Origin: Halegenticoccus tardaugens
Lineage (GTDB): Archaea; Halobacteriota; Halobacteria; Halobacteriales; Haloferacaceae
Direction of reading: 5' to 3'
Assembly: GCF_004116405.1 (NCBI RefSeq)
Contig: NZ_SDIC01000004.1
Span: 1-64,000 of the forward strand
DNA: 64,000 nt
Positions 36,511 through 55,759 of this stretch are shown here, piece by piece (the stretch's first letter is position 1; each line of letters starts with the position of its first letter). The position numbers and the translations under genes were made by a program. A model generated the notes under the pieces. The model was not told the DNA's origin. It made no database searches and saw only the letters and a program-made list of their open reading frames with translations.

Positions 36511-37116
36511 CTACGCCACCTCCAGCGAGACGGAGCGCGGCAGCGCCGCGACGCGATCGCCCGCGGCGAACACGACGTCGACCCCCCGCGGGTAGTCCGA
36601 CTGCGCGTCGGCGACGGCCCGGAGCTCCGCCCTCGGGAGCCCGCCGACGGCGAGCGTCCGTTCGTCGGGAACGCCCGGGCCGGTGACGGTCACCCGCGTC
36701 GAGTCGGCGGATCGGATGGGCGGGGCGTCGCGTGCGTCCCTGCCGCTTCCACGGTTTTCGTCATCAACGGTCCGCACCGCGTCGACGCGGTAAATCACGG
36801 TCGCGCCGACCGAGGGTTCCTTTCGGGTGCCGCGGTTCGCGTCGCGGACGCGGCCGTCGGTCGACTCGGGCGCGTGGACGACGCGCGCCGCCTCGAACGG
36901 CGCGTCCGCGAGGCGTCCCTCGCCGGCGAGCGCCTCGCGCACGTCGGCGTCGGGCGTAAAGCACGTCACCTCGTGGTCGACGAGCGTCGCCAGGACCGCC
37001 CGGTCGGCGGGCGCGACCGGCACCCGCCGAACCGTCCCCGGTCGACTCGTCGCGTCGACGAGCGCCCGGAACGTCTCGCGCGCGTCGCGGACGGGGTCCA
37101 TCCCGAGCGCTCTCAT
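36511..37116 (-). CDS. phnH: C-P lyase subunit PhnH
   Basis: The 201-residue protein starts MRALGMDPVRDARETFRALV followed by DATSRPGTVRRV, the standard PhnH N-terminus, and ends with the conserved YPRGVDVVFAAGDRVAALPRS. PhnH is the PLP-transferase-like but cofactor-free subunit of the PhnGHI core. An Arg/Asp-rich insert occupies residues ~115-140. The ATG at 37116 overlaps the phnG stop (ATGA); the frame upstream of that is read-through only. It is slightly longer than bacterial PhnH. Confidence 0.92.
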   Translation of the reverse strand: MRALGMDPVRDARETFRALVDATSRPGTVRRVPVAPADRAVLATLVDHEVTCFTPDADVREALAGEGRLADAPFEAARVVHAPESTDGRVRDANRGTRKEPSVGATVIYRVDAVRTVDDENRGSGRDARDAPPIRSADSTRVTVTGPGVPDERTLAVGGLPRAELRAVADAQSDYPRGVDVVFAAGDRVAALPRSVSLEVA

Positions 37117-37568
37117 CCGTCCTCCTCCATCGTCTCGAACTCGACGGTCGTAGCGCGGCTCTCGGCCCACCGCCGTCGGCGACGGCGCTCCCTGGCGGCG
37201 GCGGCGGCCCGGAGCTCCGCCGCGATCCGGTCGGTCAAGTCGTGACCGGCGGCGACGGCGGCGTCGACGATCGCGCCGGAGAGGGCCGCGCGCTCCTCCT
37301 TTCCGGGGATCATCGCGAAGCCCCTCGCGCCGTCGAGTTCGACCTCGGCGGCCGTGACCAGCACCTCGCCGAGGTTGAACGGCCGCTTCTCGACGGGCTC
37401 CGTCACCCGCTGCATCACGAGTTGCGCCGACGGCTCCCGGAGCACGCGGAGCTCGGGTCCGTCGGCGAGGACGGCGTCCGCGAGCTCGGCGAGCGTTTCC
37501 CCCTCGCAAGCGGCGATCAGTTCGAACCGATCCGACCGATCGCGCGCGCCGTGTGTTGCGGTTTGCAC
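37113..37568 (-). CDS. phnG: C-P lyase subunit PhnG, first gene of the operon
   Basis: The 151-residue protein has the PhnG pattern LRVLREPSAQLVMQRVTEPVEKRPFNLGEVLVTAAEVELDG around residues 41-80 and AMIPGKEERAALSGAIVDAAV near residue 85. It forms the core hexamer with PhnH, PhnI and PhnJ. I use the GTG at 37568 because a TATA-like CGCTTATC lies ~28 nt upstream (37593-37600), which fits a leaderless message. A basic stretch of Arg residues (RERRRRRRW) near residue 128 is unusual in an acidic proteome and could contact nucleotide or RNA. Confidence 0.9.
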   Translation of the reverse strand: MQTATHGARDRSDRFELIAACEGETLAELADAVLADGPELRVLREPSAQLVMQRVTEPVEKRPFNLGEVLVTAAEVELDGARGFAMIPGKEERAALSGAIVDAAVAAGHDLTDRIAAELRAAAAARERRRRRRWAESRATTVEFETMEEDG

Positions 37569-37590
37569 GGCCGCACCGTCGGGAAACGGG

Positions 37591-37611
37591 GAGATAAGCG
37601 CTGTCTGGGTA
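37591..37611 (-). promoter_or_regulatory. phnG promoter: TACCCAGACA element followed by TATA-like box
   Basis: On the - strand, TACCCAGACA (37611-37602) is followed directly by GCGCTTATCTC (37601-37591), a TATA-like box ~28 nt from the phnG start. The same 10-mer is placed identically before the phnD box. Confidence 0.65.
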
Positions 37612-37792
37612 CTCTCCAGCCCTGCGCGCGACGGCGGGGCGGATCACCTCTTGGACGAGTCGCCTCCGGCCCACTCCGGACTCCCCCGACCGGACCGTGA
37701 CTGACCCGGTCCGAAATCGACGCGTCCGGACGGAACCGGTCGAACGACTCGAACGGAGGTCTCCGCAGGGTGGTGCGCGTCCGCCCGTAGTC

Positions 37793-37837: not shown

Positions 37838-38884
37838 ATGTCTCACCCCACAGAGGCCATCTCGACCACCGACGGACCGACGACGGGAACCGACGCCGAC
37901 CGCAGCTCCGCCGGCGATGCGACACGTATCGGCCGCCGGCGGTACCTCGTCGGCGCGGGCGCGGCGGCGGTCGCGACGCTTTCGGGCTGCACCGAGTCGC
38001 TCGGGATGACCGGCGGTGGCGGCGAGACCGTCACGGTCCTCCTCACCCCGGACAACCCCTCGGAGGTACAGAAGGACTACGAGCCGATGATGAACTACCT
38101 GAACGAGGAGGTCGACGGCGCGGAGTTCGAAGCCCGCGTCCCGACCGACTACTCGGCCATCCTCCCGGCGCTGAAGAGCGAGAAGGCCGAGATCGGGATG
38201 GACGACATCACGATGATCTCCGCGCCGGAGGAACTCGACGTCCTCGGGACGACCGTCGCCGGCGGGACGGCGTTTTACTTCTCGATGATGCTCACCCGGG
38301 ACGACACCGGCGTCGAGGAGCCGGCCGACATGGAGGGAAAGACGATGGCGTTCGCCGACCCGCTGTCGACCAGCGGCTCGCTCTACGCCGTGTACGAACT
38401 CAAGCGGGCTGGCCTCGACATCGGCGAAGCGCCGGGAAGCGACGAGGGCGCCGACTTCGACGGGAACTGGTCGGACCACCAGAACGCCGTCGAACAGGTG
38501 CTGAACGAGGAGGCCGACGCGTGTTGCACCTGGGGCGGCAACGGGATGCGTTTCGTCCCCGAGGACCAGCTGACGGACGAGGTGAAGGAGAAGTCCGCGT
38601 TCGTCGACGAGGCCGGTTCGGAGGACGAACAGCTCACCGTCGTCACGTTCTCCGAACCGATCCCCAACCAACCGGTGTACGCGCGCGCGAGCTGGGACTC
38701 GCCGATCAAAGACGAGATGCGAGACCGCCTGCTCGCGCTCGAATCGGGCGACCTGGACGAGTACACGCCGGACGACTACGACGGCGAGATCCCGTTCGAA
38801 CGCCTGAAGGACACCACCGAGGAGGACTACCAGCCGGTGATCGACGTCGTCGACGAACTCGGGATCGACCTCACCCAGGAGTAG
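37838..38884 (+). CDS. phnD: Phosphonate-binding lipoprotein PhnD
   Basis: The 348-residue protein is the substrate-binding part of a phosphonate ABC importer. It has a Tat signal (GRRRYLVGAGAAAVATL) ending in the lipobox SGC near residue 51, so it is folded before export and anchored outside. The mature part begins VTVLLTPDNPSEVQKDYEPM and has PhnD features: GMDDITMISAPEE, FADPLSTSGSLYAVYEL and ACCTWGGNGM (a variant of the usual DVG/AVxW region). The first ~30 residues are acidic and precede the RR motif. It is the first gene of phnDCE, driven by the promoter at 37793-37812. Confidence 0.93.
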   Translation: MSHPTEAISTTDGPTTGTDADRSSAGDATRIGRRRYLVGAGAAAVATLSGCTESLGMTGGGGETVTVLLTPDNPSEVQKDYEPMMNYLNEEVDGAEFEARVPTDYSAILPALKSEKAEIGMDDITMISAPEELDVLGTTVAGGTAFYFSMMLTRDDTGVEEPADMEGKTMAFADPLSTSGSLYAVYELKRAGLDIGEAPGSDEGADFDGNWSDHQNAVEQVLNEEADACCTWGGNGMRFVPEDQLTDEVKEKSAFVDEAGSEDEQLTVVTFSEPIPNQPVYARASWDSPIKDEMRDRLLALESGDLDEYTPDDYDGEIPFERLKDTTEEDYQPVIDVVDELGIDLTQE

Positions 38885-38892
38885 CTCTCCCC

Positions 38893-39720
38893 ATGAGCAC
38901 GCTGACCGTGAGGAACCTGACGAAGCGCTACGGCGACGTCACGGCGCTGCGGGACGTCTCGTTCGAGATCGACGACGACGAGTTCGCGGTGCTCCTCGGC
39001 GAGTCGGGGGCGGGGAAGTCGACGCTGCTGCGCTGCGTGAACGGCCTCACGGAGCCGACGGAGGGGGAAATCCGCCTCGACGGGGAGCCGCTCTCGAAGT
39101 CCCGCTCGGACGTGGCGATGATCTTCCAGCGGCACAACCTCATCGAGCCGATGACCGCCTACTCGAACGCGCTCACCGGCGCGCTCCACCGGACGTCGCT
39201 GGCCGAGAGCGTCCTGCAGCGGCACGACGAGGCCGACGAACTCGCGGCGCTCTCGGCGCTCGACACCGTCGGCCTCCTCGCCGCGGCGCACCAGCCCGTC
39301 GCGAACATGAGCGGCGGCCAGCGGCAACGCGTCGGCATCGCCCGGGCGCTCGTCCAGGATCCCGGCCTGCTCCTCGCGGACGAGCCCGTCGCCAGCCTCG
39401 ACCCGTCGAGCGCCGAAACCGTGATGACGTACCTGAAGCGGGCCTCGCGCGAGCACGGCATCGCGACGCTCGCGAGCCTCCACCAGGTGAACATCGCCCG
39501 CTACTTCGGCGATCGCTTCCTCGGACTGCGGGACGGGCGGCTGGTCTTCGACGGGCGGTGCGACGAGCTGACGTACGACGTGATCGACGAGCTGTACGGC
39601 GAGGTAGAGACGGTCGGCCTCGGCGTCCCCGGCAGCGAAACCCGGGTTCGGATCGACGGCGATCCAGTCCTCGAAGCCGACGGGAGCGTCGGAACGGCGT
39701 CCGGTCGGGGTGGGCTATGA
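38893..39720 (+). CDS. phnC: Phosphonate ABC transporter ATPase PhnC
   Basis: The 275-residue ATPase has Walker A LLGESGAGKSTLLRCVNGL, the Q-loop FQRHNLIEPMTAYSNALTGAL that is typical of PhnC, signature MSGGQRQRVGIARAL and Walker B LLLADEPVASLDP. It powers uptake through PhnE. The ATG at 38893 follows phnD by 8 nt, and the stop overlaps phnE (ATGA). The last ~35 residues are an extra hydrophilic tail. Confidence 0.94.
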   Translation: MSTLTVRNLTKRYGDVTALRDVSFEIDDDEFAVLLGESGAGKSTLLRCVNGLTEPTEGEIRLDGEPLSKSRSDVAMIFQRHNLIEPMTAYSNALTGALHRTSLAESVLQRHDEADELAALSALDTVGLLAAAHQPVANMSGGQRQRVGIARALVQDPGLLLADEPVASLDPSSAETVMTYLKRASREHGIATLASLHQVNIARYFGDRFLGLRDGRLVFDGRCDELTYDVIDELYGEVETVGLGVPGSETRVRIDGDPVLEADGSVGTASGRGGL

Positions 39721-40781: not shown

Positions 40782-41660
40782 TCAGATCTCGACGTGACCC
40801 GGGTCCACGCCCGCGTGGATCCGAACGGCGAGTTCGGCCGCGTTCGCCCAGTAGTGGATCACGCGTTCGAGCGCGCGGGTCACGGTCACGAGGTAGCCGT
40901 AGGTGTCGGGATCGTACGCCGTCGCGAGCTCGAACAGCTCCGAGAGGTCGCGGTGGACGCGCTTTTCCTCCGCGTGCAGCTCCTCGATGCGCGCGAGGTC
41001 GCACTCGAAGAGCACGGCGCAGAAGTGTCGGTGGATTCGCTCGCCGGCTTCGAAGACGTCGCGGACGCGGTCGTGGACCGTCCCGGTCGGCGTCTCCTCC
41101 GTCACCTCGATCGCGTCCGACACGAAGCAGGCCCTGTCGCCGACGATCTCGAGGTTTTTGGCGATCGAGGCCAGGTCCGCCGCGACGCGGTTGCCCGGCC
41201 AGTCGACCGTCATCGTGAGCGACTTGAGTTCGCCGAGCACCGTCGAGTACCGCTCGTTCGACAGCGGTTCGAGCGCGTCCGCGGTCCCCTCCGGTGGGTC
41301 GCCCTCGAAGGTCGCGAGCGCCGCCCGGTACTGCTCGAACGTCACCTCGTCCAGCCGACGCAGCAGCGCCAACAGCTCGCTTCGGCCCGGCGCGCCGGCG
41401 CGCTCGGCGCGTCGCCACAGCTCAGACACCGACCGGGCGCGGTCGTACACCCGCTCGTCGTCGACGACGTACGCCTTCGTAACGATCCCCTCCGACTTCA
41501 GCTCCTGAAGCAGTTCGGAGAGGTAGTGTTGTGAGATACCGAGCCGATCCGCGGCCTCGGCTTTCGTCTCCGGGGCCGACCGGTCGATCGTCTCGATGAC
41601 GCGCGCGAGGGTGATCGTCCGCCCGTCCGGGTGGGCGTCCGTCGGTGCGTGCCAGATCAT
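40782..41660 (-). CDS. Regulator with N-terminal winged helix and C-terminal PhoU-like domain
   Basis: The 292-residue protein has a helix-turn-helix near residues 17-65 (KAEAADRLGISQHYLSELLQELKSEGIV) and, from residue ~120, two three-helix PhoU-like repeats (LASIAKNLEIVGDRACFVSDAIE; VTRALERVIHYWANAAELAVRI). PhoU proteins sense phosphate transport status; the HTH suggests direct transcription control. It faces phnE and diverges from a second PhoU-type gene, so it may regulate the phn genes. I chose ATG 41660; the frame extends to 41720 without better support. Confidence 0.83.
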   Translation of the reverse strand: MIWHAPTDAHPDGRTITLARVIETIDRSAPETKAEAADRLGISQHYLSELLQELKSEGIVTKAYVVDDERVYDRARSVSELWRRAERAGAPGRSELLALLRRLDEVTFEQYRAALATFEGDPPEGTADALEPLSNERYSTVLGELKSLTMTVDWPGNRVAADLASIAKNLEIVGDRACFVSDAIEVTEETPTGTVHDRVRDVFEAGERIHRHFCAVLFECDLARIEELHAEEKRVHRDLSELFELATAYDPDTYGYLVTVTRALERVIHYWANAAELAVRIHAGVDPGHVEI

Positions 41661-41833
41661 GCCCCGCCCTGCGCGCTCGGTCGGGATATGGCTACTCCAC
41701 GGACAGTCCGTACCGGTCAATAGTTTCGGCGTTCGGTCGGGCGCGCTCGATTCTGCCGGATCGATCGCCTCGGCGGCGAGCGGTCGGGTCGCCTCCGATC
41801 CCGTATATAGGAGTACGGTCGGCTCATATCAAC

Positions 41834-41841
41834 GGTTAAGC
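41834..41841 (+). promoter_or_regulatory. TATA-like box of the phoU gene
   Basis: GGTTAAGC is centred ~31 nt before the ATG at 41869. A second AT-rich string, CCGTATATAGGAG (41803-41815), lies further upstream and may serve the divergent regulator or an alternative start. Confidence 0.45.
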
Positions 41842-41868
41842 TCCGACCCCGACCTGCGTGTGACAACT

Positions 41869-42897
41869 ATGGAGACGCGCAAGGTGCAGCTGTCGGGGGG
41901 CACTACGTACACCGTCTCGCTCCCGAAACACTGGGCGCAGGAGCAGGGCATCGAGTCCGGGTCCCTGCTGTACCTCCACCCAGAGGGCGACGGCTCGCTT
42001 CTCATCGAATCCGACGACCGGCGGGACGCGGAGCGCCGTACCGTCCGGCTCGACGTTCGAGACCACGACGTCGACGCGCTCTGCGAGACGGTCGTCGCGA
42101 TGTACGTGGTCGGCTACGATCGCATCACGCTGGTCGACGCGACGGGGCACTCTCCGGAGCGCCGACGGACGGTTCGAGAACTCACCGCCCGGTTCAGCGG
42201 CTTCGAGGTGCTCGAAGCCACGGAGACGAAGCTCGTCCTGGAGAACCTCATCACCGCCGACAACGTCTCCATCCGAAAGAGCGCACTCAGACTCCGACTC
42301 ATCATGCTCGCGATGCACCGTGACGCCGTCCGCGCGGTCGTCGACGACGACCCCGCGCTCGCTCGGCAGGTCGCCCAACGCGACGAGGAGGCCGACAAAC
42401 TCTTCGCGATGATCACCCGTCACTACCGGCGCGCGCTCGTCGACCTCCGGGAGGTCGACCGTCTCGGCGACGACCGCGCCGAACTGTTCGAGTACTACGC
42501 CGTCGCCCGGCAGTTCGAACGCATCGCGGACCACGCGGAGAAGATCGCCACCCTCGCACGGGAACGCTCCGAGGCCCCTTCGGACGACCTCGCCGGGACG
42601 TTCTCGGCGACGGCCGACCGCGCGCGGCGGATCGTCGAGTCCGCGGCCGACGTCGTCCTCTCCGGCGCGAACATCTCGCACGCCTACGACGCGCTCACCG
42701 AGGTCGACGCGCTGGTCGACGATCTCGACGCCCACCACCGCGACCTCTACGACCACGAGTCCGCCCCGCGGGCGCACTTCTTCGGGCTGCTGCTCGACAG
42801 CGTCCAGCGGACGGCGGAGTACGGCGGCAACATCGCCGAACTCGCGATCCAGCGGTCGGTTCGGCGCGACGGCGACCTCGACGCGAACCGACCGTAG
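41869..42897 (+). CDS. phoU: Phosphate regulator with AbrB/SpoVT and PhoU domains
   Basis: The 342-residue protein starts METRKVQLSGGTTYTVSLPKHWA, a swapped-hairpin AbrB/SpoVT DNA-binding domain, followed from residue ~125 by PhoU helices (LRLIMLAMHRDAVRAVVDDD; YYAVARQFERIADHAEKIATLA; LLLDSVQRTAEYGGNIAELA). This layout is common in haloarchaea for control of phosphate uptake. The ATG at 41869 starts the AbrB domain directly; the longer frame is discarded. It lies beside the C-P lyase and phosphonate transporter genes, which fits phosphate-starvation control. Confidence 0.88.
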   Translation: METRKVQLSGGTTYTVSLPKHWAQEQGIESGSLLYLHPEGDGSLLIESDDRRDAERRTVRLDVRDHDVDALCETVVAMYVVGYDRITLVDATGHSPERRRTVRELTARFSGFEVLEATETKLVLENLITADNVSIRKSALRLRLIMLAMHRDAVRAVVDDDPALARQVAQRDEEADKLFAMITRHYRRALVDLREVDRLGDDRAELFEYYAVARQFERIADHAEKIATLARERSEAPSDDLAGTFSATADRARRIVESAADVVLSGANISHAYDALTEVDALVDDLDAHHRDLYDHESAPRAHFFGLLLDSVQRTAEYGGNIAELAIQRSVRRDGDLDANRP

Positions 42898-44953: not shown

Positions 44954-45202
44954 CTACGCGGCGTCGATCCTGACGAGCGCCTGCCCCGCCTCGATGGCTT
45001 CCTCGTTCCCGACGAGGATCTCGCGGACGACGCCGGGGGCGTCGGCCGTGATCTCGTGGAAGTTCTTCATCACCCCGATCAGGCCGACGACGTCGCCGGC
45101 CTCCACGCGATCTCCCTCCTCGACGAACGACGCGTCGTCCGGATTCGGACGCCGGTAGAACACCCCGGGCATCGGGGCCGTGATGGTGGTTTCTTCTGAC
45201 AT
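44954..45202 (-). CDS. Biotin carboxyl carrier protein (stand-alone biotinyl domain)
   Basis: This 82-residue protein is just a biotinyl/lipoyl beta-barrel: APMPGVFYRRPNPDDASFVEEGDRVEAGD, then the attachment loop GVMKNFHEI with Lys46 and ADAPGVVREI. The usual AMKM is VMKN here, as in carriers linked to 5-oxoprolinase/urea-carboxylase-like genes. It would carry CO2 on biotin from the biotin carboxylase at 47349-48710 to the carboxyltransferase subunits at 45330-47200. A TATA-like CCTAAATAG is present ~60 nt upstream on the - strand; the 127-bp gap suggests its own promoter. Confidence 0.85.
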   Translation of the reverse strand: MSEETTITAPMPGVFYRRPNPDDASFVEEGDRVEAGDVVGLIGVMKNFHEITADAPGVVREILVGNEEAIEAGQALVRIDAA

Positions 45203-45329
45203 GTGGCGTGAGTGGCGGCGCGCTCGGGTCGCCGCCGGACACCGCGTCGTACTCTATCCTACTATTTAGGCTTTGGTCGTCGCGTGTTCGATCGATCACC
45301 GACCGATCGAACGAATCCGGATCCCGGGA

Positions 45330-46298
45330 TCACCCGAGCGACGACCTGATCGCGTCGAGCGCCTCCCGCCGTTCGGCGCGAGCGTCGAGCGCCTCGTCGA
45401 CCGTCACCGCGTCGAAGTAGACGGACTGGTGGGTTGGCCGCTGCGCGAGGAGGCCCCTGTCGGCGCTGACGACGGTTCCGACCGTCGCGTAGCCGCCGCC
45501 GGTCACCGCGTCGCGCATGAGGACGATCGGCTGCTGGGGCACCTGGATCGAGCCGACCGGGTAGCCGAGGTCGACGACGTTCGAGGGGTCCGTGCCCGCG
45601 CCGAACGGCTGCTCGCGCGGGACGAAATCGAGGTCCGGTCCCTCCAGTCGGTACCCCACGCGGTCGGCCTCGGGCGTCACGGTCCACTCCGCATCGCAGA
45701 GTTCGGCCTTGCTCTCCTCCGTCAGCCGGTAGTCGCAGAGCCCGAGCACGATCCGGATGCGCGATTCCGACGCGTAGTCCGGGACGCGCTCGGGATCGAC
45801 GGCCGAGCCGACGAGCGCCTCGCTCTCGCCTTTCGGCTCGCCGACGGCGAGTTCGTCGCCCGCTTCGAGCGCGCGACCCTCGTACCCGCCGAGGCCGATC
45901 AGCGTGTACGTCGACCGGCTCCCCATGAGCGGGTCGACGTCGATCCCGCCGGCGACCGCGAGGTACGTCCGCGCGCCGTTCGTGGCGAACTGCGTGGCGA
46001 GCACGTCGCCGGCCTCGACCGCGTGGGTCTCCCACGTGGCCACCGGCTCGTCGTTGATCGTCGGCGACATCTCCGCGCCGGCGAGCGCGATCACGGCGTC
46101 GTCGCCGAATTCGAGGGTGCAGCCCTGGTACGTCATCTCCAGCGCGGCGCGGTCGGCGTCGTTGCCGACGAGGTAGTTCGCGGCCGCGTGGGCGTACCCG
46201 TCCATGGCCCCCGACGGGGGCATGCCGATGTGGTAGTGCCCGAAGCGGCCCGTGTCCTGCACCGTCGTGAGCACGCCGGGTTCGCGGACGGTGATCAC
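45330..46298 (-). CDS. pxpC: Carboxyltransferase/5-oxoprolinase subunit C family protein (AHS2 domain)
   Basis: The 322-residue protein has the AHS2/KipA pattern: REPGVLTTVQDTGRFGHYH, then MPPSGAMDGYAHAAANYLVGN, EMTYQGCTLEFG and ALAGAEMSPTINDEPV. In 5-oxoprolinase this is PxpC; in urea carboxylase the same domain is half of the carboxyltransferase. The GTG start at 46298 overlaps the stop of the AHS1 gene (GTGA), so both subunits are made together. With a biotin carrier and biotin carboxylase nearby, a biotin-dependent carboxyltransferase is as likely as a lactamase. Confidence 0.87.
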   Translation of the reverse strand: MITVREPGVLTTVQDTGRFGHYHIGMPPSGAMDGYAHAAANYLVGNDADRAALEMTYQGCTLEFGDDAVIALAGAEMSPTINDEPVATWETHAVEAGDVLATQFATNGARTYLAVAGGIDVDPLMGSRSTYTLIGLGGYEGRALEAGDELAVGEPKGESEALVGSAVDPERVPDYASESRIRIVLGLCDYRLTEESKAELCDAEWTVTPEADRVGYRLEGPDLDFVPREQPFGAGTDPSNVVDLGYPVGSIQVPQQPIVLMRDAVTGGGYATVGTVVSADRGLLAQRPTHQSVYFDAVTVDEALDARAERREALDAIRSSLG

Positions 46299-47200
46299 GC
46301 GTACAACGCCTCCGTGAGCCGTTCGTTGTACCCCGCCGGGTCCTCGAAGAACGCCTCGGGAGAGAACGCGACCTCCGACGTCCGGTACTCGTACGTCCCC
46401 GCCTCGATCTCCTCGCGGATCGCGTCGTACTCCTCGCGGTCGATCCGCCGGAACTTCAGGATGTCCCCGGGTTCGGGGAACACCATCGACTCCCGGAAGT
46501 CGGGCAACTCCTGCTCCACGTCGAGCACTTCGAGCGGCGTCCGCCCGTAGAGCTGGTAGCCCCCCGCGCCCTGAACCGGGTAGACGGCGGTGAACGCGCC
46601 GCCGAAGCCGACCGCCCGCGACGGGGTGTCGGTCCGCGGCTGGACGTACTTCGGCACCTCGATCTGCCGGTCGCGCGGGACCATCTGGAAACACCACGGG
46701 AGACCGGGGACGAACCCGACCATCGTGACCATGTGCGGCGCGCCGGCGTGCGCCGCGACGAACTCCTCGACGCCGTCGAAGCCGTTGATCCGCGCGGAGT
46801 ATTCGAGGTCGGTCGCGTCGGGGTCCTGGTGGTTTTCGCGAAAGCGCATCAGCGTCTCGTGCGTCCACGGGTCCTCGTAGAGGACCGGGAAGTCGACGAT
46901 CCGCGTGTCCCACTCGTACTCGGTCAGGTCCGTCTCCGCGGCGATCGACTGCAGCTCCTCGACCAGCTCCCGCGGGTCGATCTCGTCCGGATCGACGTGG
47001 AGCATGTAGGAGGCGTTCGCCGGGCAGATCTCGACGATCCCCGGGAGGTCGCGCGCTTCGATCTGCTGGGTGATCGCCATCGCCTGGAAGTTGGCGTCGA
47101 AGCTCATGGCCTCGTCCAGCTCGACGAAGACGTAGTCGTCCCCGCCGAACTCGTACCGTGGCTCCGGCAACGATATCCGTTCGATGCTTCCCTCGGTCAT
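46295..47200 (-). CDS. pxpB: Carboxyltransferase/5-oxoprolinase subunit B family protein (AHS1 domain, long form)
   Basis: The 301-residue protein is longer than typical PxpB (~220). Its middle segments ([92 protein letters not shown]) resemble the AHS1 part of urea carboxylase as I remember it, including its C-terminal extension ([14 protein letters not shown]). That suggests a carboxyltransferase rather than a plain oxoprolinase subunit. It is first in the - strand operon and diverges from the biotin carboxylase gene. Confidence 0.85.
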
Positions 47201-47312
47201 GTCGTGTGATCACGGTTCTCACGACGCTACGTATAGTTGCCGGTGGTCGATCCGGTTCGGTCGAATTCCCGCGAACGGGTGGGATCGAGTCCAACGACGG
47301 GAGGAATTCCTA

Positions 47313-47321
47313 ACGTATATG
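47313..47321 (+). promoter_or_regulatory. TATA box that fixes the biotin carboxylase start
   Basis: ACGTATATG is centred ~31 nt before the GTG at 47349. The ATG at 47319 lies inside this box, so a leaderless message starting at the GTG is the better reading. Confidence 0.5.
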
Positions 47322-47348
47322 CCACGGGTTACCCAACCACTCGATATC

Positions 47349-48710
47349 GTGTTCGAGAGCGTACTCGTCGCAAACAGGGGCGAAATCGCCGTCCGGATCG
47401 TCCAGGCCTGCCGCGAACTCGGGGTCGAGGCGGTCGCCGTGTACAGCGACGCGGACGAGGAGGCAAAGCACGTCCGGCACGCCGACCGCGCGTACAACGT
47501 CGGCTCGCCGGTTCCCTCGAAGAGCTACCTCGATCAGGACCGCCTGCTGGAGGTCGTCGCGGAGGCGGGCGTCGACGCCGTTCACCCCGGCTACGGCTTC
47601 CTGGCGGAGAACGCCGGGTTCGCCCGGCGGATCGAGGGGAGCGACGCCGTCTGGGTCGGTCCCCCGAGCGACGTGATGGAGTCGCTGGGCGAGAAGACGA
47701 AGGCCCGTGCGATCATGCGGGGGGCGGGCGTCCCGATCGTCCCCGGCACCACGGAGCCGGTCGAATCGCCCGACGCGGTCAGGTCATTCGCGGACGAGCA
47801 CGGCTACCCGGTGGCGATCAAGGCCGACGGCGGCGGGGGCGGGAAGGGGCTCGCCGTCGTCGAGAGGGCCGCGGCGGTCGACGAGCGGTTCGAGAGCGCC
47901 CGCCGCGAGGGCGAGGCGTACTTCGATAACCCGAACGTGTACGTGGAGAAGTACCTCGAAGCCCCGCGACACGTCGAGGTGCAGGTGCTCGCCGACGAGC
48001 ACGGCACCGTCCGCCACTTCGGCGAGCGAGACTGCTCCGTCCAGCGCCGACAGCAGAAGCTCATCGAGGAAGCGCCGAGCCCGGCGCTCGACGACGACGA
48101 GCGCGAGGCGCTCTGTGAGTCCGCTCGCCGCGGCGTCGCGGAGGCGGGGTACGAAAACGCCGGGACCGTCGAGTTCCTCTACCAGGACGGCGAGTTCTAC
48201 TTCCTCGAGGTGAACACCCGGATCCAGGTCGAACACCCGGTGACGGAGGCGCGCACCGGCTTCGATCTCGTGAAGTGGCAGCTCCGGGTGGCCGCCGGCA
48301 AGGAGATCGACTTCGGCCAGTCGGACGTTCGGCCCGTCGGCGCGGCCATCGAGTTCCGCATCAACGCCGAGGACCCGGCGAACGACTTCACGCCGCGGCC
48401 CGGGACGGTCGACGTGTACCGTCCGCCGCGCGGAATCGGCGTCCGCGTCGACGACGGCATCGATCAGGGCGACGAGGTCGGCCCCTTCTACGACTCGATG
48501 GTGGGGAAGGTCGTCGTCGCGGGGCAGACCCGGACCGAGGCCGTCGCCCGGTCGAAGCGCGCCCTTCGCGAGTGCGAGATCGACGGCATCCCGACCACGA
48601 TCCCGTTCCACGAGCGGGTCCTCTCGGACGAACGCTTCCTCGCCGGCGAGCACACGACCCGGTTCGTGGAGGACTCGCTCGACCTGACGTTCGACGAGTC
48701 CGAGGACTGA
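47349..48710 (+). CDS. accC: Biotin carboxylase subunit
   Basis: The 453-residue ATP-grasp enzyme carboxylates biotin on the carrier protein. It starts [20 protein letters not shown], the classic biotin carboxylase N-terminus, with [14 protein letters not shown] near residue 78, the Gly-rich lid [13 protein letters not shown] near 160 and [14 protein letters not shown] near 288. The GTG at 47349 is preferred because a TATA box lies ~31 nt upstream; the ATG at 47319 would sit within that box. It faces away from the AHS1/AHS2 genes across a shared promoter region. It is shorter than full acyl-CoA carboxylase alpha chains because it lacks the carrier domain. Confidence 0.93.
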
Positions 48711-48792
48711 GCCGTCCGTCGCCCGCTCGCCCCTCGTTCAGCGCTCATCCCTCCTCCAACGCCCACTCTCCCGTTCAACGCTCACCCGCCGT

Positions 48793-49287
48793 TCACTCGT
48801 CCTGCCGCGCGTGGAGTTCCAACAGCGAGTCGAGCGAGTACGTCCGCAGGGGGTTCGGCTCCTCCTTGATCGTCGTGATCACGTACCGCGAACTCGTCCG
48901 TTCGACCTCGTCTATGGTCTCGAACGCCTCGATGAGCGACTCGACCCCCCGATGGTCGGCGAGTCGGGAGACGAGGATGAAATCGGTGTCCCCCATCGTG
49001 AAGAACACGTCGCAGACGCCCTCGATCTCGCTGAGCTTCGAGCCGACGATCTCGTGGTACCCCTCCTCGTACTCGGCCATCACCTCCGTGACGACCGTGA
49101 TCCCGAGGCCGAACTTCTCGGCGTCGAGTTCGTACAGGTCGTTTTCGAGAACGCCGGCGTCCTGGAGTTTGGTCAGCCGGTAGTGCACGGTGGACTTCGG
49201 GATCCCCGTCTCCGCTTCGATCCGCTTCGGGCTCGGATCGCCGAGTTCGTACATCGCCTTGAGGATCTCGATGTCGCGTTCGTCCAT
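48793..49287 (-). CDS. Lrp/AsnC family transcription regulator
   Basis: The 164-residue protein has an N-terminal HTH (LGDPSPKRIEAETGIPKSTVHYRLTKL, residues 16-42) and a C-terminal RAM/ligand domain (CDVFFTMGDTDFILVSRLADH near residue 92). Lrp-type proteins sense amino acids or related small molecules. It lies between the biotin carboxylase and the LamB/YcsF gene, so it may be the local regulator of this cluster. A TATA-like CGTTTTAT on the - strand (49318-49311) is ~28 nt from its ATG, giving a leaderless message. Confidence 0.9.
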   Translation of the reverse strand: MDERDIEILKAMYELGDPSPKRIEAETGIPKSTVHYRLTKLQDAGVLENDLYELDAEKFGLGITVVTEVMAEYEEGYHEIVGSKLSEIEGVCDVFFTMGDTDFILVSRLADHRGVESLIEAFETIDEVERTSSRYVITTIKEEPNPLRTYSLDSLLELHARQDE

Positions 49288-49310
49288 ACCGCCTCGTTTC
49301 GGCGGGGGGA

Positions 49311-49318
49311 ATAAAACG
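49311..49318 (-). promoter_or_regulatory. TATA-like box of the Lrp gene
   Basis: CGTTTTAT on the - strand lies ~28 nt from the ATG at 49287. The gap to the upstream LamB/YcsF stop is 54 bp, so the regulator has its own promoter. Confidence 0.5.
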
Positions 49319-49341
49319 ATTGATCGTCCGGCCGCGACCGC

Positions 49342-50103
49342 CTACGCGATCTCGGAAAGCGGCGCGAGGTCGACGCCGTGTTCGGCGCGCGCCTCGTGGA
49401 TCGCCTCGAGCAGTTCGACCGCGTTCGGCCCGTCGCCGTGGATGCAGACGCTCTCGGCCGGAACCTCGATCGTCTCGCCGTTCGCCGCCTCGACCGTCCC
49501 CTCGGTGGCGATGCTGACGAATCGCTCTGCGACCCGTTCGGGATCCTTCGGCTCCATCTGCTGCTCGACGATGAGGCTCCGGTCGGGGTTGTACCGGAGA
49601 TCGACGTACCCCTCGAACACGGCGCGGAGGTCGTCGAACTCCCGCGCGACCTCGTAGATGTGCATGTCCGTCGCGAGGTAGATCAGGTCGGGGTCGACCG
49701 CGAGGATCCCCTCCATGACCGCCCGCGCGTGCTCCGGGCTCTCCGACAGCATCGAGTACATCGCCCCGTGCGGCTTCACGTGTTGCACCCTCGCACCCTG
49801 CGCCTCCGCGAACGCCGAGAGCGCGCCGAGCTGGTAGATCACGTAGTCTCTCACCTCCTCGGGCGAGGCGTCCATCTTCCGCCGCCCGAACCCCATCTTG
49901 TCCGGCAATCCGGGGTGTACGCCGATACCCACGTCGTGTTCGACCGCGAGCGCGACCGTCTCGCGCATCACGTGCGGGTCGCCGGCGTGGTACCCGCCGG
50001 CGACGTTCGCCGAGGTGACGTACGGCATGACCGCCGCGTCGCGGCCCATCGTCCAGTTGCCGAAGCTCTCGCCCATGTCGCAGTTCACGTCCACCGTGAC
50101 CAT
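49342..50103 (-). CDS. pxpA: LamB/YcsF family protein, 5-oxoprolinase subunit A
   Basis: The 253-residue protein has the family motifs VDVNCDMGESFGNWTMG at the start, VTSANVAGGYHAGDP near residue 32, GVHPGLPDKMGFGRRKM near 60, VQHVKPHGAMYSML near 105 and CIHGDGPNAVELL near 222. In bacteria PxpA works with PxpB and PxpC to hydrolyse 5-oxoproline to glutamate with ATP. Here it sits apart from the B and C genes, past the biotin carboxylase and Lrp genes, on the same strand as B and C. The ATG at 50103 is chosen because the domain begins at once. Confidence 0.92.
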   Translation of the reverse strand: MVTVDVNCDMGESFGNWTMGRDAAVMPYVTSANVAGGYHAGDPHVMRETVALAVEHDVGIGVHPGLPDKMGFGRRKMDASPEEVRDYVIYQLGALSAFAEAQGARVQHVKPHGAMYSMLSESPEHARAVMEGILAVDPDLIYLATDMHIYEVAREFDDLRAVFEGYVDLRYNPDRSLIVEQQMEPKDPERVAERFVSIATEGTVEAANGETIEVPAESVCIHGDGPNAVELLEAIHEARAEHGVDLAPLSEIA

Positions 50104-50196
50104 GCTAGAGAGTGGTGCGCGTTCGACGCAAATAGGTTGCGCAGGATCGACCGGCCGCACCCGAAGGTGCGCGGCCCGACCGCGGGACGACCGCGA

Positions 50197-51441
50197 TCAG
50201 GCCGACTCGCTCGCCTCGTCCGCGAGCCGACGGACGGTCTCCGCGAACACCCCGACGCCGGCGACGACGTCGGTCCACTCGGTGAACTCGCGCTCGTTGT
50301 GCGTCTTCCCGCCGACGCTCGGGACGAAGACGAGACCCGCTTCCGTGAGGGTCGCGAGCGACGAGGCGTCGTGGCCCGCCCCGCCGCGGAGCCGACGGAC
50401 GGTTCGACCGCGCTCCGCCGCGGCCGCCGCCGCGACGTCGCAGACCCGCGGGGAGAACTCGGTGTGCGGGATCCGCCACAGTTCGGAGAGTTCGTACGTC
50501 GTCCCCTCGCGGTCGCACGCCGCCTCCAGTTCGGCCTCGACGCGCTCGACGCCTCTGGCGACGGCCGCGTCGTCGTACGACCGCAGGTCGACGGTGAACG
50601 TCGCCGCCGAGGGGATGACGTTGATCGACCCCGGCTCGACGGTCAGCTCCCCGACGGTCGTGACCGCGTCGTCGGCGAGGCGGGCGGAGAGCCGCCGAAC
50701 CGCCCCCACCACGTCCGCGGCGGCGACGAGCGCGTCCGCTCTCGTGTGCATCGGCGACGGCCCCGCGTGGTCGGCCTCGCCGCGGATCGTCGCCGAGAGC
50801 CACGACATCCCCTTGATCCCTTCGACGACGCCGATGTCGACCCCCTCGTTCTCCAGAACCGGTCCCTGCTCGACGTGCAGCTCCAGGTACGCGTGCAGGT
50901 CGCCGTCCGGGCCGACCGGGGCGTCGCCGCGGTAACCGATCGATTCGAGCGCCTCCTCGACGGTCGTTCCGTCCCCGTCCTCGACCGCGAGCGCGTCCTC
51001 GGCGTCGGCGAGGCCGGCGTACGCCTCGCTGCCCATGAGCGCCGGCTTGAACCGCGCGCCCTCCTCGTTCGTCCAGTCGACGATCTCGATCGGCCGGTCC
51101 GTCTCGACGCTCGCGTCCTCCAGTGCGCGCAGCGTTTCGAGCGCCGCGAGCACGCCCAGCTGGCCGTCGTACCGGCCGCCGTAGGGCTGCGAATCGAGGT
51201 GCGAGCCGATCAGCACGGGGTCCGCGCCGGAGTCCCTTCCTTCCCGCCGCCCGAAGACGTTTCCGAGCCCGTCCACGCGCACGTCGAGGCCGAGGGCTTC
51301 GAGGTCGGCCACGAAGGCGTCCCTGACTTCGCCGTCCGCCGCCGACAGCGCGAGCCGGTGTAACCCGCCGTTTTCCGTCGCTCCGATCGCCGCGTACCGG
51401 TCGAACGCCTCCCGGAGGCGCTCCGGATCGATCTCGATCAT
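50197..51441 (-). CDS. M20-family amidohydrolase (allantoate/N-carbamoyl-L-amino acid hydrolase type)
   Basis: The 414-residue metallopeptidase-like enzyme has IGSHLDSQPYGGRYDGQLGVL near residue 78 (His, Asp ligands), WTNEEGARFKPALMGS near 122 (Glu-Glu), LELHVEQGPVLE near 187, a dimerisation domain with GEADHAGPSPM near 220, and GAGHDASSLA near 353. Such enzymes cleave N-carbamoyl or ureido groups to ammonia and CO2. Next to a urea-carboxylase-like cluster it fits a pathway for lactam, hydantoin or ureido compounds. A TATA-like GATATAAGT (51475-51467) lies ~30 nt from its start. Confidence 0.9.
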   Translation of the reverse strand: MIEIDPERLREAFDRYAAIGATENGGLHRLALSAADGEVRDAFVADLEALGLDVRVDGLGNVFGRREGRDSGADPVLIGSHLDSQPYGGRYDGQLGVLAALETLRALEDASVETDRPIEIVDWTNEEGARFKPALMGSEAYAGLADAEDALAVEDGDGTTVEEALESIGYRGDAPVGPDGDLHAYLELHVEQGPVLENEGVDIGVVEGIKGMSWLSATIRGEADHAGPSPMHTRADALVAAADVVGAVRRLSARLADDAVTTVGELTVEPGSINVIPSAATFTVDLRSYDDAAVARGVERVEAELEAACDREGTTYELSELWRIPHTEFSPRVCDVAAAAAAERGRTVRRLRGGAGHDASSLATLTEAGLVFVPSVGGKTHNEREFTEWTDVVAGVGVFAETVRRLADEASESA

Positions 51442-51533: not shown

Positions 51534-51626
51534 ATGGCAACCTGTAGCACCACCGTATCGCTCCGTCGCGTTCGACGGCGCGCACGGGAACCGAATCGGG
51601 AGCGCCGACGCGGCGGAGGGCGGTGA
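51534..51626 (+). CDS. Possible 30-codon leader ORF coupled to the deacetylase gene
   Basis: GGTTAAT (51503-51509) lies ~28 nt before an ATG at 51534. The ORF (MATCSTTVSLRRVRRRARE..., Arg-rich) ends with a TGA inside the GTG start of the next gene (GTGA at 51623-51626). Position and coupling suggest translation, but the composition is poor and no homology is known. Confidence 0.3.
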   Translation: MATCSTTVSLRRVRRRAREPNRERRRGGGR

Positions 51627-52783
51627 GCGCCGAGATGGCCGCCGACCGAGCGCTGGACGTGTACTGGCACGAGGAGACGCTCCGGCACGAAGCGCCCGCG
51701 GGGGCGTTCAAGCTGGCGTCGACGCCGATCGCCGGCGACGAACCGCACCCCGACCGGCCCGAACGGATCGAGAACATCGTGCGGACGGTCGAACACGCTT
51801 TCGACGACCGCTCGCGGTTCGTCCCCGTCGAACCCGCCCCGCGCGACCGAATCGAGCGCGTCCACGACCCGTCGTACGTCTCGTGGCTGGAGGAGTTCTG
51901 CGCAAAGGGCGGCGGCAGGATCGAGGACACCACCACGGGCGCGAACCGTGCGACGTTCGAGGCCGCCCGGTACGCCGCCGGCACCGCCCTCGCCGCCGCG
52001 CGGGCCGCGCTCGACGTCGACGGGGCCGACGGCGAGGAGGCGATCCCCTACGCGCTCGCGCGGCCGAGCGGCCACCACGCGCAGTCGGATCGCGCCGACG
52101 GGTTCTGCTTTTTCAACAACGTGGCGATCGCCGCCGCGGCGGCGCTCGAAGAAGGGGCGGTCGACCGGGTGGCGATCGTCGACTGGGACGTCCACCACTG
52201 CAACGGCACCCAGGAGATATTCGACGACCGCGACGACGCGCTCGTGGTGAGCCTCCACCACGACCACGGCTCGTGGCACCCGACGTACCACCCGCAGGAA
52301 GGGTCGCTCGACGAGGTGGGATCGGGCGCGGGAGCCGGGTACACGGTCAACGTCCCGCTCGCGATCGGCACCGGCGATCGGGGCTACGAGTACGCCTTCG
52401 AACGGCTCGTCGAGCCGATCGTCCGGGCGTACGACCCGGATCTGCTGCTCGTGAGCGCCGGACAGGACGCGGGCGTCGTCGATCCGAACGGGCGAAACCT
52501 CGTGACTCGACCCGGATTCCGACGGCTCGGGGAGCGAACGAGGGCGCTCGCCGACGACGCGGCGGACGGCCGCTTCGCCCTCGTCCAGGAGGGCGGGTAC
52601 CAGCCGTCCCACCTCTCCTTCGCGACGCTCGGCGTGCTGGAAGGGGTTCTCGGAACGACCGTCGACCTCGACCGGTACGGAACGGGCGACCCGTTCGACT
52701 GGCTCGACGAACCCGTCGAGCACGCGAAAACGTGGATCGACGCCGCGGCGGAGGCCCACGCCGAACGCTGGCCGGTCGAGTGA
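51623..52783 (+). CDS. Histone deacetylase/acetylpolyamine amidohydrolase family protein
   Basis: The 386-residue arginase-deacetylase fold enzyme has the catalytic pair H151-H152 in RPSGHHAQSD and Zn ligands D189 and H191 (DWDVHHCNGTQ) and D282 (SAGQDAG). It removes acyl groups from lysine or polyamines. The N-terminal PDRPERIENIVRTVEHAF is typical of class II-like bacterial and archaeal members, several of which act on acetylpolyamines. The start is the GTG at 51623, with an ATG at 51635 as alternative. It may belong with nearby amine and amide catabolic genes. Confidence 0.9.
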   Translation: MSAEMAADRALDVYWHEETLRHEAPAGAFKLASTPIAGDEPHPDRPERIENIVRTVEHAFDDRSRFVPVEPAPRDRIERVHDPSYVSWLEEFCAKGGGRIEDTTTGANRATFEAARYAAGTALAAARAALDVDGADGEEAIPYALARPSGHHAQSDRADGFCFFNNVAIAAAAALEEGAVDRVAIVDWDVHHCNGTQEIFDDRDDALVVSLHHDHGSWHPTYHPQEGSLDEVGSGAGAGYTVNVPLAIGTGDRGYEYAFERLVEPIVRAYDPDLLLVSAGQDAGVVDPNGRNLVTRPGFRRLGERTRALADDAADGRFALVQEGGYQPSHLSFATLGVLEGVLGTTVDLDRYGTGDPFDWLDEPVEHAKTWIDAAAEAHAERWPVE

Positions 52784-52953: not shown

Positions 52954-54330
52954 ATGTCCGGAAGTCCACCGATAGCGGACCTCCACTTCGAGGACGCGCC
53001 CCGCGTGGAGACGCCGATCCCCGGGCCGAACTCCCAGAAGCTGCTCCGCCGCCAGCGCGAGATCGACAGCGGTGCGGTCGCGTACCCGCGGAGCGTGCCG
53101 ATCGCCCTCGACGAGGCGAAGGGTGCCACCATCCGGGACGTCGACGGCAACTGCTTTCTCGACTTCTTCGCCGGGATCGGCGTGCTCAACGTCGGCCACT
53201 CCAACCCGTACGTGCTGGAGGCGGTCACGGAGCAGACCGAGCGGCTCGTCCACACGATCGACTTCCCGACCGAGGCGCGGATCGAGTTCATCGAGAAGCT
53301 CGACGAGATCGCGCCGGGCGGTCTCGGGGGGCGAAACCGCGTCGTGTTCGGCGGGCCGAGCGGCAGCGACGCCATCGAGGCGTCGATCAAACTCGCGAAG
53401 TACAACACCGACGGTCGCGGGCTGATCGCGTTCAAGGGCTCGTACCACGGCGCGACGTCGGGCGCGCTCAGCCTCACGAGCGGGAAGAAGTACAAGGAGG
53501 CGTACACGCCGCTGCTCCCCGACGTCGTCCACGCCCCCTACCCGTACCCGCTGTGGGACGACGGCGACGCCTGCGGGCGCATCCTCGACGAGGTTCGCGC
53601 CACCGTCGAGGACCCCTACGGCGGCCTGACGAACCCCGCCGGCATCTGGGTCGAGCCGATCCAGGGCGAGGGGGGCGTCGTCGTCCCGCCGGAGGGGTTC
53701 CTCCCGGGACTGAAGGAGATCGCCGAGGACAACGGCATCCCGCTGATCGTCGACGAGATTCAGGCCGGCTTCGGCCGCACGGGCAAGTGGTTCGCCTCGG
53801 AGTGGTTCGACGTGACGCCCGACGCCATTCCGATGGCGAAGGGGGCCGGCGGGGCCGGGTTGCCGCTCGGCGCGCTCATGTACCACGAGGACCTCGACAC
53901 GTGGGGGCCCGGCGGCCACATCGGCACGTTCAGGGGGAACGTCCCCGCGATGCGCGGCGGCGTCCGCGCGATCGAGTACGTCCAGGAGCACGACCTCCTC
54001 GACCACGCGGTCGACCTCGGCGAGTACATCCGGGGGCGACTCCGCGAGGCTGCGGAGGCGTCGCCGTCCCTCGCGGAGGTCCGCGGGATGGGCCTCTTCA
54101 TCGGCGCGGAGTTCGTCGACGACGAAGGCCGACCCGACGAGGCCGCCGTGAACGAGATCCGCGAGTACTGCTACAACCGCGGCGTGCTCGTGTGGAGCGC
54201 CGGGCGCTACGGGAACGTCCTCAGGCTTCTCCCGCCGCTCGTCATGACCCGCGAACAGGCCGAGACCGGCCTCGACGTGGTCGTCGACGCGATCGAGGCC
54301 CACGCGGGAGAGGCGGCCGGGCGGTCGTAG
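52954..54330 (+). CDS. PLP-dependent class III aminotransferase or amino acid racemase
   Basis: The 458-residue protein has the class III layout: [19 protein letters not shown] near residue 70, [18 protein letters not shown] near 130, [17 protein letters not shown] near 158, [19 protein letters not shown] near 231, [16 protein letters not shown] near 266, and the Schiff-base Lys in [15 protein letters not shown] near 293. Homologs transaminate omega-amines such as 4-aminobutyrate or ornithine; archaeal relatives include broad-specificity amino acid racemases. Its start is set by the TATA box at 52922-52929. It may feed products of the neighbouring amidohydrolases into central metabolism. Confidence 0.9.
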
Positions 54331-54528: not shown

Positions 54529-54572
54529 CCCCACCCTACCGCTCGCCTGACGGCTCGCGCTTGAGGGTGGGG
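54529..54572 (-). ncRNA. Right-end hairpin overlapping the 3' end of tnpB; likely omega-RNA scaffold
   Basis: A 9-bp perfect stem (CCCCACCCT / AGGGTGGGG) closes a 26-nt loop. The tnpB stop codon (54536-54538) lies inside the hairpin. In related elements the guide RNA of TnpB is processed from just this 3' end and right-end segment. Its full length and guide boundary cannot be set by eye. Confidence 0.5.
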
Positions 54573-55759
54573 CTTCCTGTTTCCACGACGCGCTTTGCAT
54601 CCACAACGGAAGACACAGGGAGCGCAGTCTCCACAGGCGTTGATTCGGAGCGTCCCGCTCCTAACCGCTTCTTGATACCGCGAGAAAGAATGTTCCACGC
54701 GGCATTCGCGTCTCTATCCACCTCGAACCCACACACCGGACAGGAGTGTTCGCGCACCCACAGCGGCTTCTCCGTCGAAACACCGCAGGACGCACACTCT
54801 TTGGTCGTTCCACGCGGATTCACGGCAACGAAGTGCGTTCCTTCCCGTTCGCACTTGTATTCGAGCATCCGAAGGAACGTTCCCCACGCCGCGCCTGCGC
54901 GGTTCCGAGAGTTACCCGGTAGTTCGACCAACCCCTTCGCGTCCAAGTCCTCAACCGCTACGAAGTCGTACTCCCGAGCGTAGTAGTTCGAGAGCTTGTG
55001 AAGGAAGTCGCAGCGCTTGTTCTTCAACTCCGCGTGGCGTTCGGCCACGACGCGGCGCTGTTCCTCCCAATTCGCAGACCCGTGTTCTTTCCGCGAGAGG
55101 TCGCGCTGTGCGCGTTCCAACCGCTCGCGCTCGTCGGACAGGTCGAAGGATTCGACGGCGGTTCCGTCGGTGTCGTGGGCGTACTTGAGAATCCCCACGT
55201 CGACACCGACGCACTTCTCGGGATTCTCGGGTTTCTCCGGCGGGTCGTCGGGTGTTTCGACACCGAGGATAGCGTACCACTTCCCGGTGGGTTCCTGTTT
55301 GACGGTGACAGTCTTGATTTCGGTGTCGTCGGGCAACTCACGGTGGAGAGTGAGCGGGATTTCTCCGAGTTTCGAGAGCCACAGCCGCGTCCGACCGCTC
55401 GTGTTCTTGAGCTTGAAGCCGGATTGACTGTAGGTGAAACTGCGGTACTCGCCCGGTGCTTTCCACTTGAGGGTGCCGACGCGGTAGCCGTTCTCTTTGC
55501 GACCGCGAAGCGTCGAGAGATTGTCGTACAACCGCTGAACGACTTTCTGAAGAACCTTCGAGTGAACGCCTTTCAGGTCGTTCCACCACTTCTTGAGGCT
55601 CGGCAGGAGCTTCTGCTCGCTGTATGCCGACGTGTCGTCGGTGCGGTTGAGTCGGTGGAGGAAGTGGTTGTAGACCTGTCTACAGGTATCGACAGTCCAC
55701 GCTAACTGTTCTTCGAGAACGTCGGACGGTCGGAGTCGATACCTGTAGTTGTAGTTCAT
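54536..55759 (-). CDS. tnpB: RNA-guided nuclease TnpB
   Basis: The 407-residue protein has an intact RuvC triad: Asp187 in CVGVDVGILKYA, Glu270 in DFVAVEDLDAKGL and Asp350 in GFEVDRDANAAWNIL. The zinc finger has Cys322, Cys325, Cys340 and Cys343. TnpB cuts DNA guided by an RNA from its own 3' end and keeps the element in place after excision. All catalytic residues are present, so it is probably active. The ATG at 55759 directly abuts the stop of the upstream mini-gene. The C-terminal ~40 residues are variable and overlap the predicted guide RNA. Confidence 0.92.
   Translation of the reverse strand: MNYNYRYRLRPSDVLEEQLAWTVDTCRQVYNHFLHRLNRTDDTSAYSEQKLLPSLKKWWNDLKGVHSKVLQKVVQRLYDNLSTLRGRKENGYRVGTLKWKAPGEYRSFTYSQSGFKLKNTSGRTRLWLSKLGEIPLTLHRELPDDTEIKTVTVKQEPTGKWYAILGVETPDDPPEKPENPEKCVGVDVGILKYAHDTDGTAVESFDLSDERERLERAQRDLSRKEHGSANWEEQRRVVAERHAELKNKRCDFLHKLSNYYAREYDFVAVEDLDAKGLVELPGNSRNRAGAAWGTFLRMLEYKCEREGTHFVAVNPRGTTKECASCGVSTEKPLWVREHSCPVCGFEVDRDANAAWNILSRGIKKRLGAGRSESTPVETALPVSSVVDAKRVVETGSPTLKREPSGER

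Follow-up and report, generated by a model that had tools for sequence, protein, structure and literature searches.

A conserved biotin carboxylase–LamB gene module as a candidate lactam hydrolase of haloarchaea and Proteobacteria

Introduction

Two described enzyme systems bear on the locus reported here. In the urea and guanidine carboxylases (TIGR02712; K. lactis 3VA7), biotin carboxylase (BC), an AHS2–AHS1 carboxyltransferase and a biotin carboxyl carrier protein (BCCP) form a single polypeptide, and in PxpABC (E. coli PxpB/PxpC/PxpA; B. subtilis YcsF–KipI–KipA) an AHS1–AHS2 pair is accompanied by the amidohydrolase LamB/PxpA. In this work, we analyse a 64,000-nucleotide stretch of Halegenticoccus tardaugens DNA (the window, which lies on contig 9 of a haloarchaeal assembly of 4.89 Mb) in which these four carboxylase parts are encoded separately and close to LamB, and we propose from sequence comparisons, with a probability of roughly 0.6, that the five proteins constitute a five-component biotin-dependent lactam hydrolase.

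With urea and guanidine carboxylases, this module shares the BC, AHS2–AHS1 and BCCP parts, the long AHS1/carboxyltransferase subdomains and an AGxxPSN-type loop in AHS2, but its carboxylase consists of four polypeptides instead of one, identity is 27–36%, a Gln takes the place of the Asn or Asp at the specificity position, and the partner is LamB instead of allophanate hydrolase. With PxpABC, it shares LamB/PxpA and the AHS1–AHS2 pair, the Gln at the specificity position and an AHS2 fold close to that of YbgK (5dud), whereas the dedicated BC and BCCP, the long AHS1 and the extra AHS2 loop set it apart, and its proteins score under the NCBIfam cut-offs for PxpB and PxpC. The module is a widespread variant between the two systems.

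Lactams with rings of five or six members strongly resist hydrolysis. Bicarbonate-dependent opening of stable lactams is known for the ATP-dependent lactamases OplAB and CapAB, which use no biotin and come from protein families unrelated to those of the module. On gamma-butyrolactam, the nylon-4 monomer, OplAB shows no more than trace activity, and no effective enzyme for it was known to the authors of that work in 2023 (PMC11033972). A LamB homologue takes part in 2-pyrrolidinone use at the fungal lamA/lamB lactam locus of Aspergillus, and B. subtilis YcsF has been related to this lamB (PMC3412718). A 2011 survey of biotin carboxylases recorded adjacent genes matching the two transferase halves of urea carboxylase in some bacteria and in Thermococcales, with no functional data (PMC3199775). 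Neither the literature that we searched nor, for the bacterial operons, the annotations give the five genes a function as a set, although the key 5-oxoprolinase paper lay outside our search and an earlier mention is possible.

Results

The five genes in the window

The module comprises the following features.

44954–45202, minus strand: BCCP, stand-alone biotin carboxyl carrier protein of 82 amino acids, biotinyl Lys46 in GVMKNF (Pfam Biotin_lipoyl, 3e-17; NCBIfam PRK07051, above cut-off)
45330–46298, minus strand: AHS2/PxpC-like protein, carboxyltransferase subdomains A-B, 322 amino acids, GTG start (Pfam CT_A_B, 8.9e-88, 295 bits)
46295–47200, minus strand: AHS1/PxpB-like protein, carboxyltransferase subdomains C-D, long form of 301 amino acids (Pfam CT_C_D, 2.6e-41, 142 bits)
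47201–47318: divergent AHS1/BC intergenic region of 118 bp, presumed shared promoter region
47319 (ATG) or 47349 (GTG) to 48710, plus strand: BC, biotin carboxylase (Biotin_carb_N, CPSase_L_D2, Biotin_carb_C)
49342–50106, minus strand: LamB/YcsF (PxpA) ring-opening amidohydrolase (Pfam LamB_YcsF, 1.5e-88)

An earlier note, made from the letters of the window, had named these genes and likened four of them to the parts of urea carboxylase; Pfam and NCBIfam profiles recover every gene at its place and identify the BC, AHS1, AHS2 and BCCP domains. BC is transcribed divergently from AHS1–AHS2, across the 118-bp gap, and the four parts are therefore not one operon. The AHS1 stop and the AHS2 GTG start overlap (GTGA), and BCCP has a 127-bp upstream gap of its own. 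Two features of biotin-dependent carboxylases are encoded, a BC whose three domains and catalytic block are intact and a carrier with the MK site (VMKNF). LamB retains its DVNCDMGE, HPG, KPHGA and HGD motifs and matches the PxpA family profile (NF003814, 304 bits; cut-off 226).

Conservation across haloarchaea

AHS1, AHS2, BCCP, BC and LamB form a conserved module in haloarchaea. Among 294 haloarchaeal genomes, 35 from 20 genera encode AHS2 (PF02626) and 38 encode LamB (PF03746), with 34 encoding both (Fisher p = 6.5e-39). Neither gene gave a match in the control genome of Haloferax volcanii. BC, BCCP and LamB recur near the 35 AHS2 loci in many gene orders and orientations, which indicates a linkage that is more than inherited operon structure; in two genomes (G138 and G249), BC and LamB are distant from AHS1–AHS2 yet on the same contig. 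Two or more BC genes are present in 34 of the 35 AHS2 genomes compared to 39 of the 259 others (the 39 being a manual count), and the MK pair is kept in all 34 haloarchaeal carriers recovered. BC and BCCP, whose co-occurrence with AHS1/AHS2 the earlier note had proposed to survey, do accompany them in haloarchaea, rearranged orders included. One AHS2 genome (G124) alone lacks both LamB and a second BC, and its AHS2 is broken by two internal stops. Four haloarchaeal genomes (G017, G072, G174 and G087) have LamB without AHS1/AHS2.

Repeated recruitment of the biotin carboxylase

The genome holds one other BC, fused to BCCP in a 604-amino-acid frame beside a PF01039 carboxyltransferase. The module itself has no PF01039 carboxyltransferase, and the PF01039 genes of this genome are all on other contigs. 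The acyl-CoA carboxylase thus comes with a BC-BCCP fusion of its own, and we reject the idea that the module BC and BCCP are borrowed or stray parts of that enzyme, a possibility that the earlier note had named as one that would refute its reading.

In the BC tree, the haloarchaeal module BCs form one clade (support 98) sister to the haloarchaeal acyl-CoA carboxylase BCs (joint 99), those of the bacterial modules form a separate clade on a different branch (100), and a third clade (100) is made up of BCs from fused PxpBC clusters. By this topology, the module BC was recruited separately in Archaea and Bacteria, more than once, and a real catalytic partnership would be expected to leave such a pattern, in which one kind of carboxyltransferase is paired time and again with different BCs. 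The carriers, unlike the BCs, are alike across domains (45–53%), and where AMKMM would otherwise stand they share VMKxF or a near variant of it; the module signature is VMK(N/S/Q/T)(F/Y).

The same gene set in Proteobacteria

In tblastn searches against plasmids, AHS1 retrieved Proteobacterial relatives with 47–58% identity over about 95% of its length and, after a clear gap, urea carboxylases (27–33%) followed by PxpB and fused PxpBC-type proteins (23–30%). The operon LamB–BCCP–BC–AHS1–AHS2 is present at all seven plasmid loci examined. A scan of GTDB genomes yielded at least 577 related loci, and among the best 80 of them, which we classified, 57 are complete five-gene sets, 3 are truncated where a contig ends and 20 have only LamB–AHS1–AHS2. 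The five-gene set is therefore widespread in Proteobacteria, at hundreds of loci, which does not support the earlier note's suggestion of a ‘distinct archaeal enzyme system’. Operons of Burkholderia, Azospirillum, Rhizobium, Variovorax and Pseudomonas have the same five families in a sister clade; they differ from the window in having a LysR regulator, an ABC transporter or permease, and a BC from a different lineage. P. aeruginosa PA0492–PA0496 may have this layout too.

A carboxyltransferase clade of its own

The note had also described AHS1 as a long form with segments resembling urea carboxylase, and the profiles agree: window AHS1 scores 113.6 bits with the urea_carbox hidden Markov model (HMM) compared to 88.7 with that of PxpB, below the latter's cut-off of 145.6, and window AHS2 reaches 217.8 bits with the PxpC HMM, under a cut-off of 500. 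Two segments, one in AHS1 and one in AHS2 (REQPFGAGTDPSN), have counterparts in urea carboxylase and are absent from PxpBC. In an unrooted tree of 93 concatenated AHS1 and AHS2 sequences with Shimodaira–Hasegawa-like approximate likelihood ratio (SH-aLRT) supports, the haloarchaeal sequences form a clade (98) whose sister group is the bacterial long form (98), and both together stand apart (100) from the urea carboxylases as well as from PxpBC and the fused forms. With three deep groups and long branches in an unrooted tree, we dropped the idea that AHS1/AHS2 are nearer to urea carboxylase than to PxpBC, a choice that such a tree leaves undecided; only the common segments and the HMM scores speak for it.

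The AlphaFold2 (AF2) model of AHS2 (predicted local distance difference test, pLDDT, 77) has E. coli YbgK (5dud) as its best PDB match, followed by the K. lactis urea amidolyase/carboxylase; the AHS1 model was of low quality (mean pLDDT 58) and was set aside.

The four shared domains and the urea-carboxylase-type segments might suggest that a urea or guanidine carboxylase, split into separate proteins, passes its product to an amidohydrolase. Asn at the specificity position marks urea carboxylases, whereas Asp marks guanidine-type enzymes (PMC12186494). We took this position to be the only column with Asn in two urea-type and Asp in three guanidine-type sequences, as typed by neighbouring urea transporter genes or UAAP1/UAAP2, a placement based on this pattern and not on structure. 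There, all 79 module proteins have Gln (Gln252 of AHS2), as do all 9 PxpC proteins. Being neither Asn nor Asp, Gln252 speaks against both substrates. Allophanate hydrolase, carboxyguanidine deiminase and urea transporter genes, which are present at true uca loci, are absent among the conserved neighbours of the module, where LamB is the partner instead. We regard this explanation as extremely improbable.

Genomic neighbours and the substrate

Further features of the window are as follows.

48793–49287, minus strand: Lrp/AsnC-type regulator, probable local regulator (Pfam AsnC_trans_reg/HTH)
50197–51441, minus strand: M20 N-carbamoyl-amino-acid/allantoate-type hydrolase, accessory (TIGR01879 hydantase, 408 bits; cut-off 204)
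51623–52783, plus strand: histone-deacetylase-family hydrolase, between the M20 and aminotransferase genes
52954–54330, plus strand: class III aminotransferase, possible next enzyme to act on the released amino acid (Pfam Aminotran_3, 9.6e-92)
54536–55759, minus strand: TnpB, IS200/IS605-type, adjoining the aminotransferase gene
35350–37674 (minus), 38521–39720 (plus) and 41596–42897 (plus): phosphonate-use cluster with PhnI and PhnH (C-P lyase), an ABC ATPase and a PhoU-domain protein

Downstream of the bacterial operons are transporters and, in several genera, a class III aminotransferase and succinate-semialdehyde dehydrogenase (SSADH) as well; gamma-aminobutyric acid (GABA) transaminase (gabT; TIGR00700) is above cut-off at six loci and SSADH (TIGR01780) at three (L074, L109 and L114). 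Class III aminotransferases are linked to the module in 13 of 31 haloarchaeal genomes (1.2 genomes expected by chance placement), from 8 of 18 genera. They belong to two different subfamilies, and copies 66–69% identical to that of the window occur at L036, L044, L052 and L055. Ten of the 31 genomes, from 7 genera, have a linked molybdenum hydroxylase of the CoxLMS type (0.4 genomes expected); such genes are directly beside the module at L032, L037, L040, L044, L046, L053, L055, L056, L059 and L060. Together, these neighbours fit lactams that open to omega-amino acids, most simply 2-pyrrolidinone to GABA. The earlier note had left lactam, urea, guanidine and hydantoin side by side; we consider a lactam to be the probable substrate and urea and guanidine to be disfavoured by Gln252, whereas the choice of 2-pyrrolidinone in particular is a tentative one, at somewhat less than even odds.

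The same mechanism could instead act on 5-oxoproline to give glutamate. LamB and AHS2 relatives are named 5-oxoprolinase subunits, the Gln at the specificity position is common to module AHS2 and PxpC, and one of the more distant clusters with biotin parts (L172, a fused PxpBC with BC-BCCP) adjoins pyroglutamyl peptidase (Pcp), with NRAMP-family transporters beside others. Against a biotin-assisted 5-oxoprolinase, the module AHS1/AHS2 are a separate, loop-bearing clade with GABA transaminase and SSADH as neighbours instead of Pcp, and Pcp was not found in this genome. We hold this possibility to be real but doubtful.

The M20 hydrolase, which the note had placed at a core step, is not conserved. 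Besides the window, it lies near L050 and the Haladaptatus locus L078, that is, one of 35 other sampled loci plus Haladaptatus, and we ruled it out as a core enzyme. At L078 (1–6107), an aminotransferase, a dihydropyrimidinase/hydantoinase-like gene, an LLM F420-type oxidoreductase, M20 and an NCS1 permease stand beside the module, an arrangement suggestive of a cluster for degrading pyrimidines or hydantoins. A pathway in which M20 takes the second step in the breakdown of hydantoins or dihydropyrimidines would agree with the position of M20 directly upstream of LamB in the window and at L050 and with the dihydropyrimidinase-like gene, permease and aminotransferase of Haladaptatus. It is nevertheless very unlikely, as M20 is missing from nearly all module loci in both domains and hydantoinases already open such rings without ATP.

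Orthologues of the Lrp regulator are found at 11 of 37 module loci, the window included. The histone-deacetylase-family hydrolase may be an acetylpolyamine amidohydrolase, in which case it would agree with formation of the lactam from putrescine by way of 1-pyrroline, and TnpB beside the aminotransferase gene hints at local mobility.

Discussion

A biotin-dependent carboxyl transfer coupled to LamB is, in our judgement, quite likely, and the intact motifs suggest how it might proceed. BC would use ATP and bicarbonate to form carboxybiotin on Lys46 of the carrier, and the AHS1–AHS2 heterodimer, a split carboxyltransferase of the urea carboxylase type, would carboxylate the amide nitrogen or lactim oxygen of the lactam; for OplAB, which also depends on bicarbonate but is unrelated, carboxylation at the lactim oxygen has been considered (PMC11033972). 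LamB/PxpA would then hydrolyse the activated ring, weakened by carboxylation, and the resulting N-carboxy amino acid would shed CO2 spontaneously. As the carbamate falls apart, bicarbonate would be catalytic and ATP would pay for the reaction, with lactam, ATP and water giving amino acid, ADP and phosphate and bicarbonate being regenerated. The likeliest substrate would be an omega-lactam, with 2-pyrrolidinone as first choice, and the GABA formed would be removed by the class III aminotransferase. In haloarchaea, more speculatively, the linked molybdenum hydroxylase might supply the lactam by acting on 1-pyrroline or another cyclic imine.

Several observations weigh against a biotin-dependent lactam hydrolase. 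Adjacency to gabT/gabD is limited to few lineages, the window aminotransferase scores 294 bits, under the NCBIfam GABA-transaminase cut-off of 507, and no molybdenum hydroxylase lies near the window module, the one copy in the genome being on another contig. PxpABC is described without biotin parts and assumed to phosphorylate 5-oxoproline (PMC13274462). The 20 loci without BC and BCCP among the best 80 are from Pseudomonas (one named Pantoea; the Pseudomonas loci include L128, L129, L131, L132, L134, L137, L138 and L155) and keep LamB–AHS1–AHS2, so that dedicated biotin parts are not strictly needed; module-type BC and BCCP were found nowhere in the 14 of these genomes that we searched. These strains make the best case for biotin being dispensable. 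They favour the view that the AHS1–AHS2–LamB trio phosphorylates its substrate directly, as proposed for PxpABC, and that BC and BCCP, instead of being its partners in catalysis, serve acyl-CoA carboxylation.

In the same 14 genomes, the best BC and BCCP matches are side by side, like accB-accC. According to the AHS1 and AHS2 tree, the dedicated BC and BCCP were lost at least twice, in two Pseudomonas clades, and all 159 near-invariant AHS1 and AHS2 positions are unchanged there, consistent with a borrowed AccBC. We read this as a replacement of the dedicated BC and BCCP by AccB and AccC. Direct phosphorylation also sits poorly with biotin parts that accompany AHS1/AHS2 in scattered genomes and rearranged orders, with a BC partner acquired more than once and with an acyl-CoA carboxylase that has a fused BC-BCCP of its own, and we consider it improbable.

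The statement in the earlier note that plain PxpABC needs no biotin parts is too simple, given that Pseudomonas members of the module family lack them and several PxpBC-type clusters have them. BC and BCCP accompany other PxpBC families, with short PxpB or fused PxpB-PxpC (L166, L168, L169, L172, L173 and L174), several of them with an NRAMP-family transporter and a ‘putative hydro-lyase’, and are thus not restricted to the present AHS1/AHS2 family. The classical Pseudomonas component A consists of two polypeptides of 64 and 51 kDa (PMC8453981); its equation with fused BC-BCCP (61–62 kDa) and fused PxpBC (56–57 kDa) was set aside as a rough coincidence of size.

At its widest, the reading would be that haloarchaea and many Proteobacteria open lactams of the 2-pyrrolidinone type with an uncharacterised class of biotin enzyme, a lactam carboxylase-hydrolase, that the wider PxpABC family is also driven by bicarbonate and biotin, borrowing AccB-AccC where needed, and that haloarchaea would convert a cyclic imine through molybdenum hydroxylase to a lactam, then to an omega-amino acid and on into central metabolism; as a whole, this combination is unlikely to hold in every part. 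If the module does open lactams with biotin, these would be an added substrate class for biotin-dependent carboxylases, and hundreds of loci annotated as ‘acetyl-CoA carboxylase’ and ‘5-oxoprolinase’ would gain a function. It would also raise the question of whether prokaryotic 5-oxoprolinase depends on bicarbonate and biotin as well, and the Pseudomonas strains without dedicated BC and BCCP offer a natural test of whether AccBC can substitute for them.

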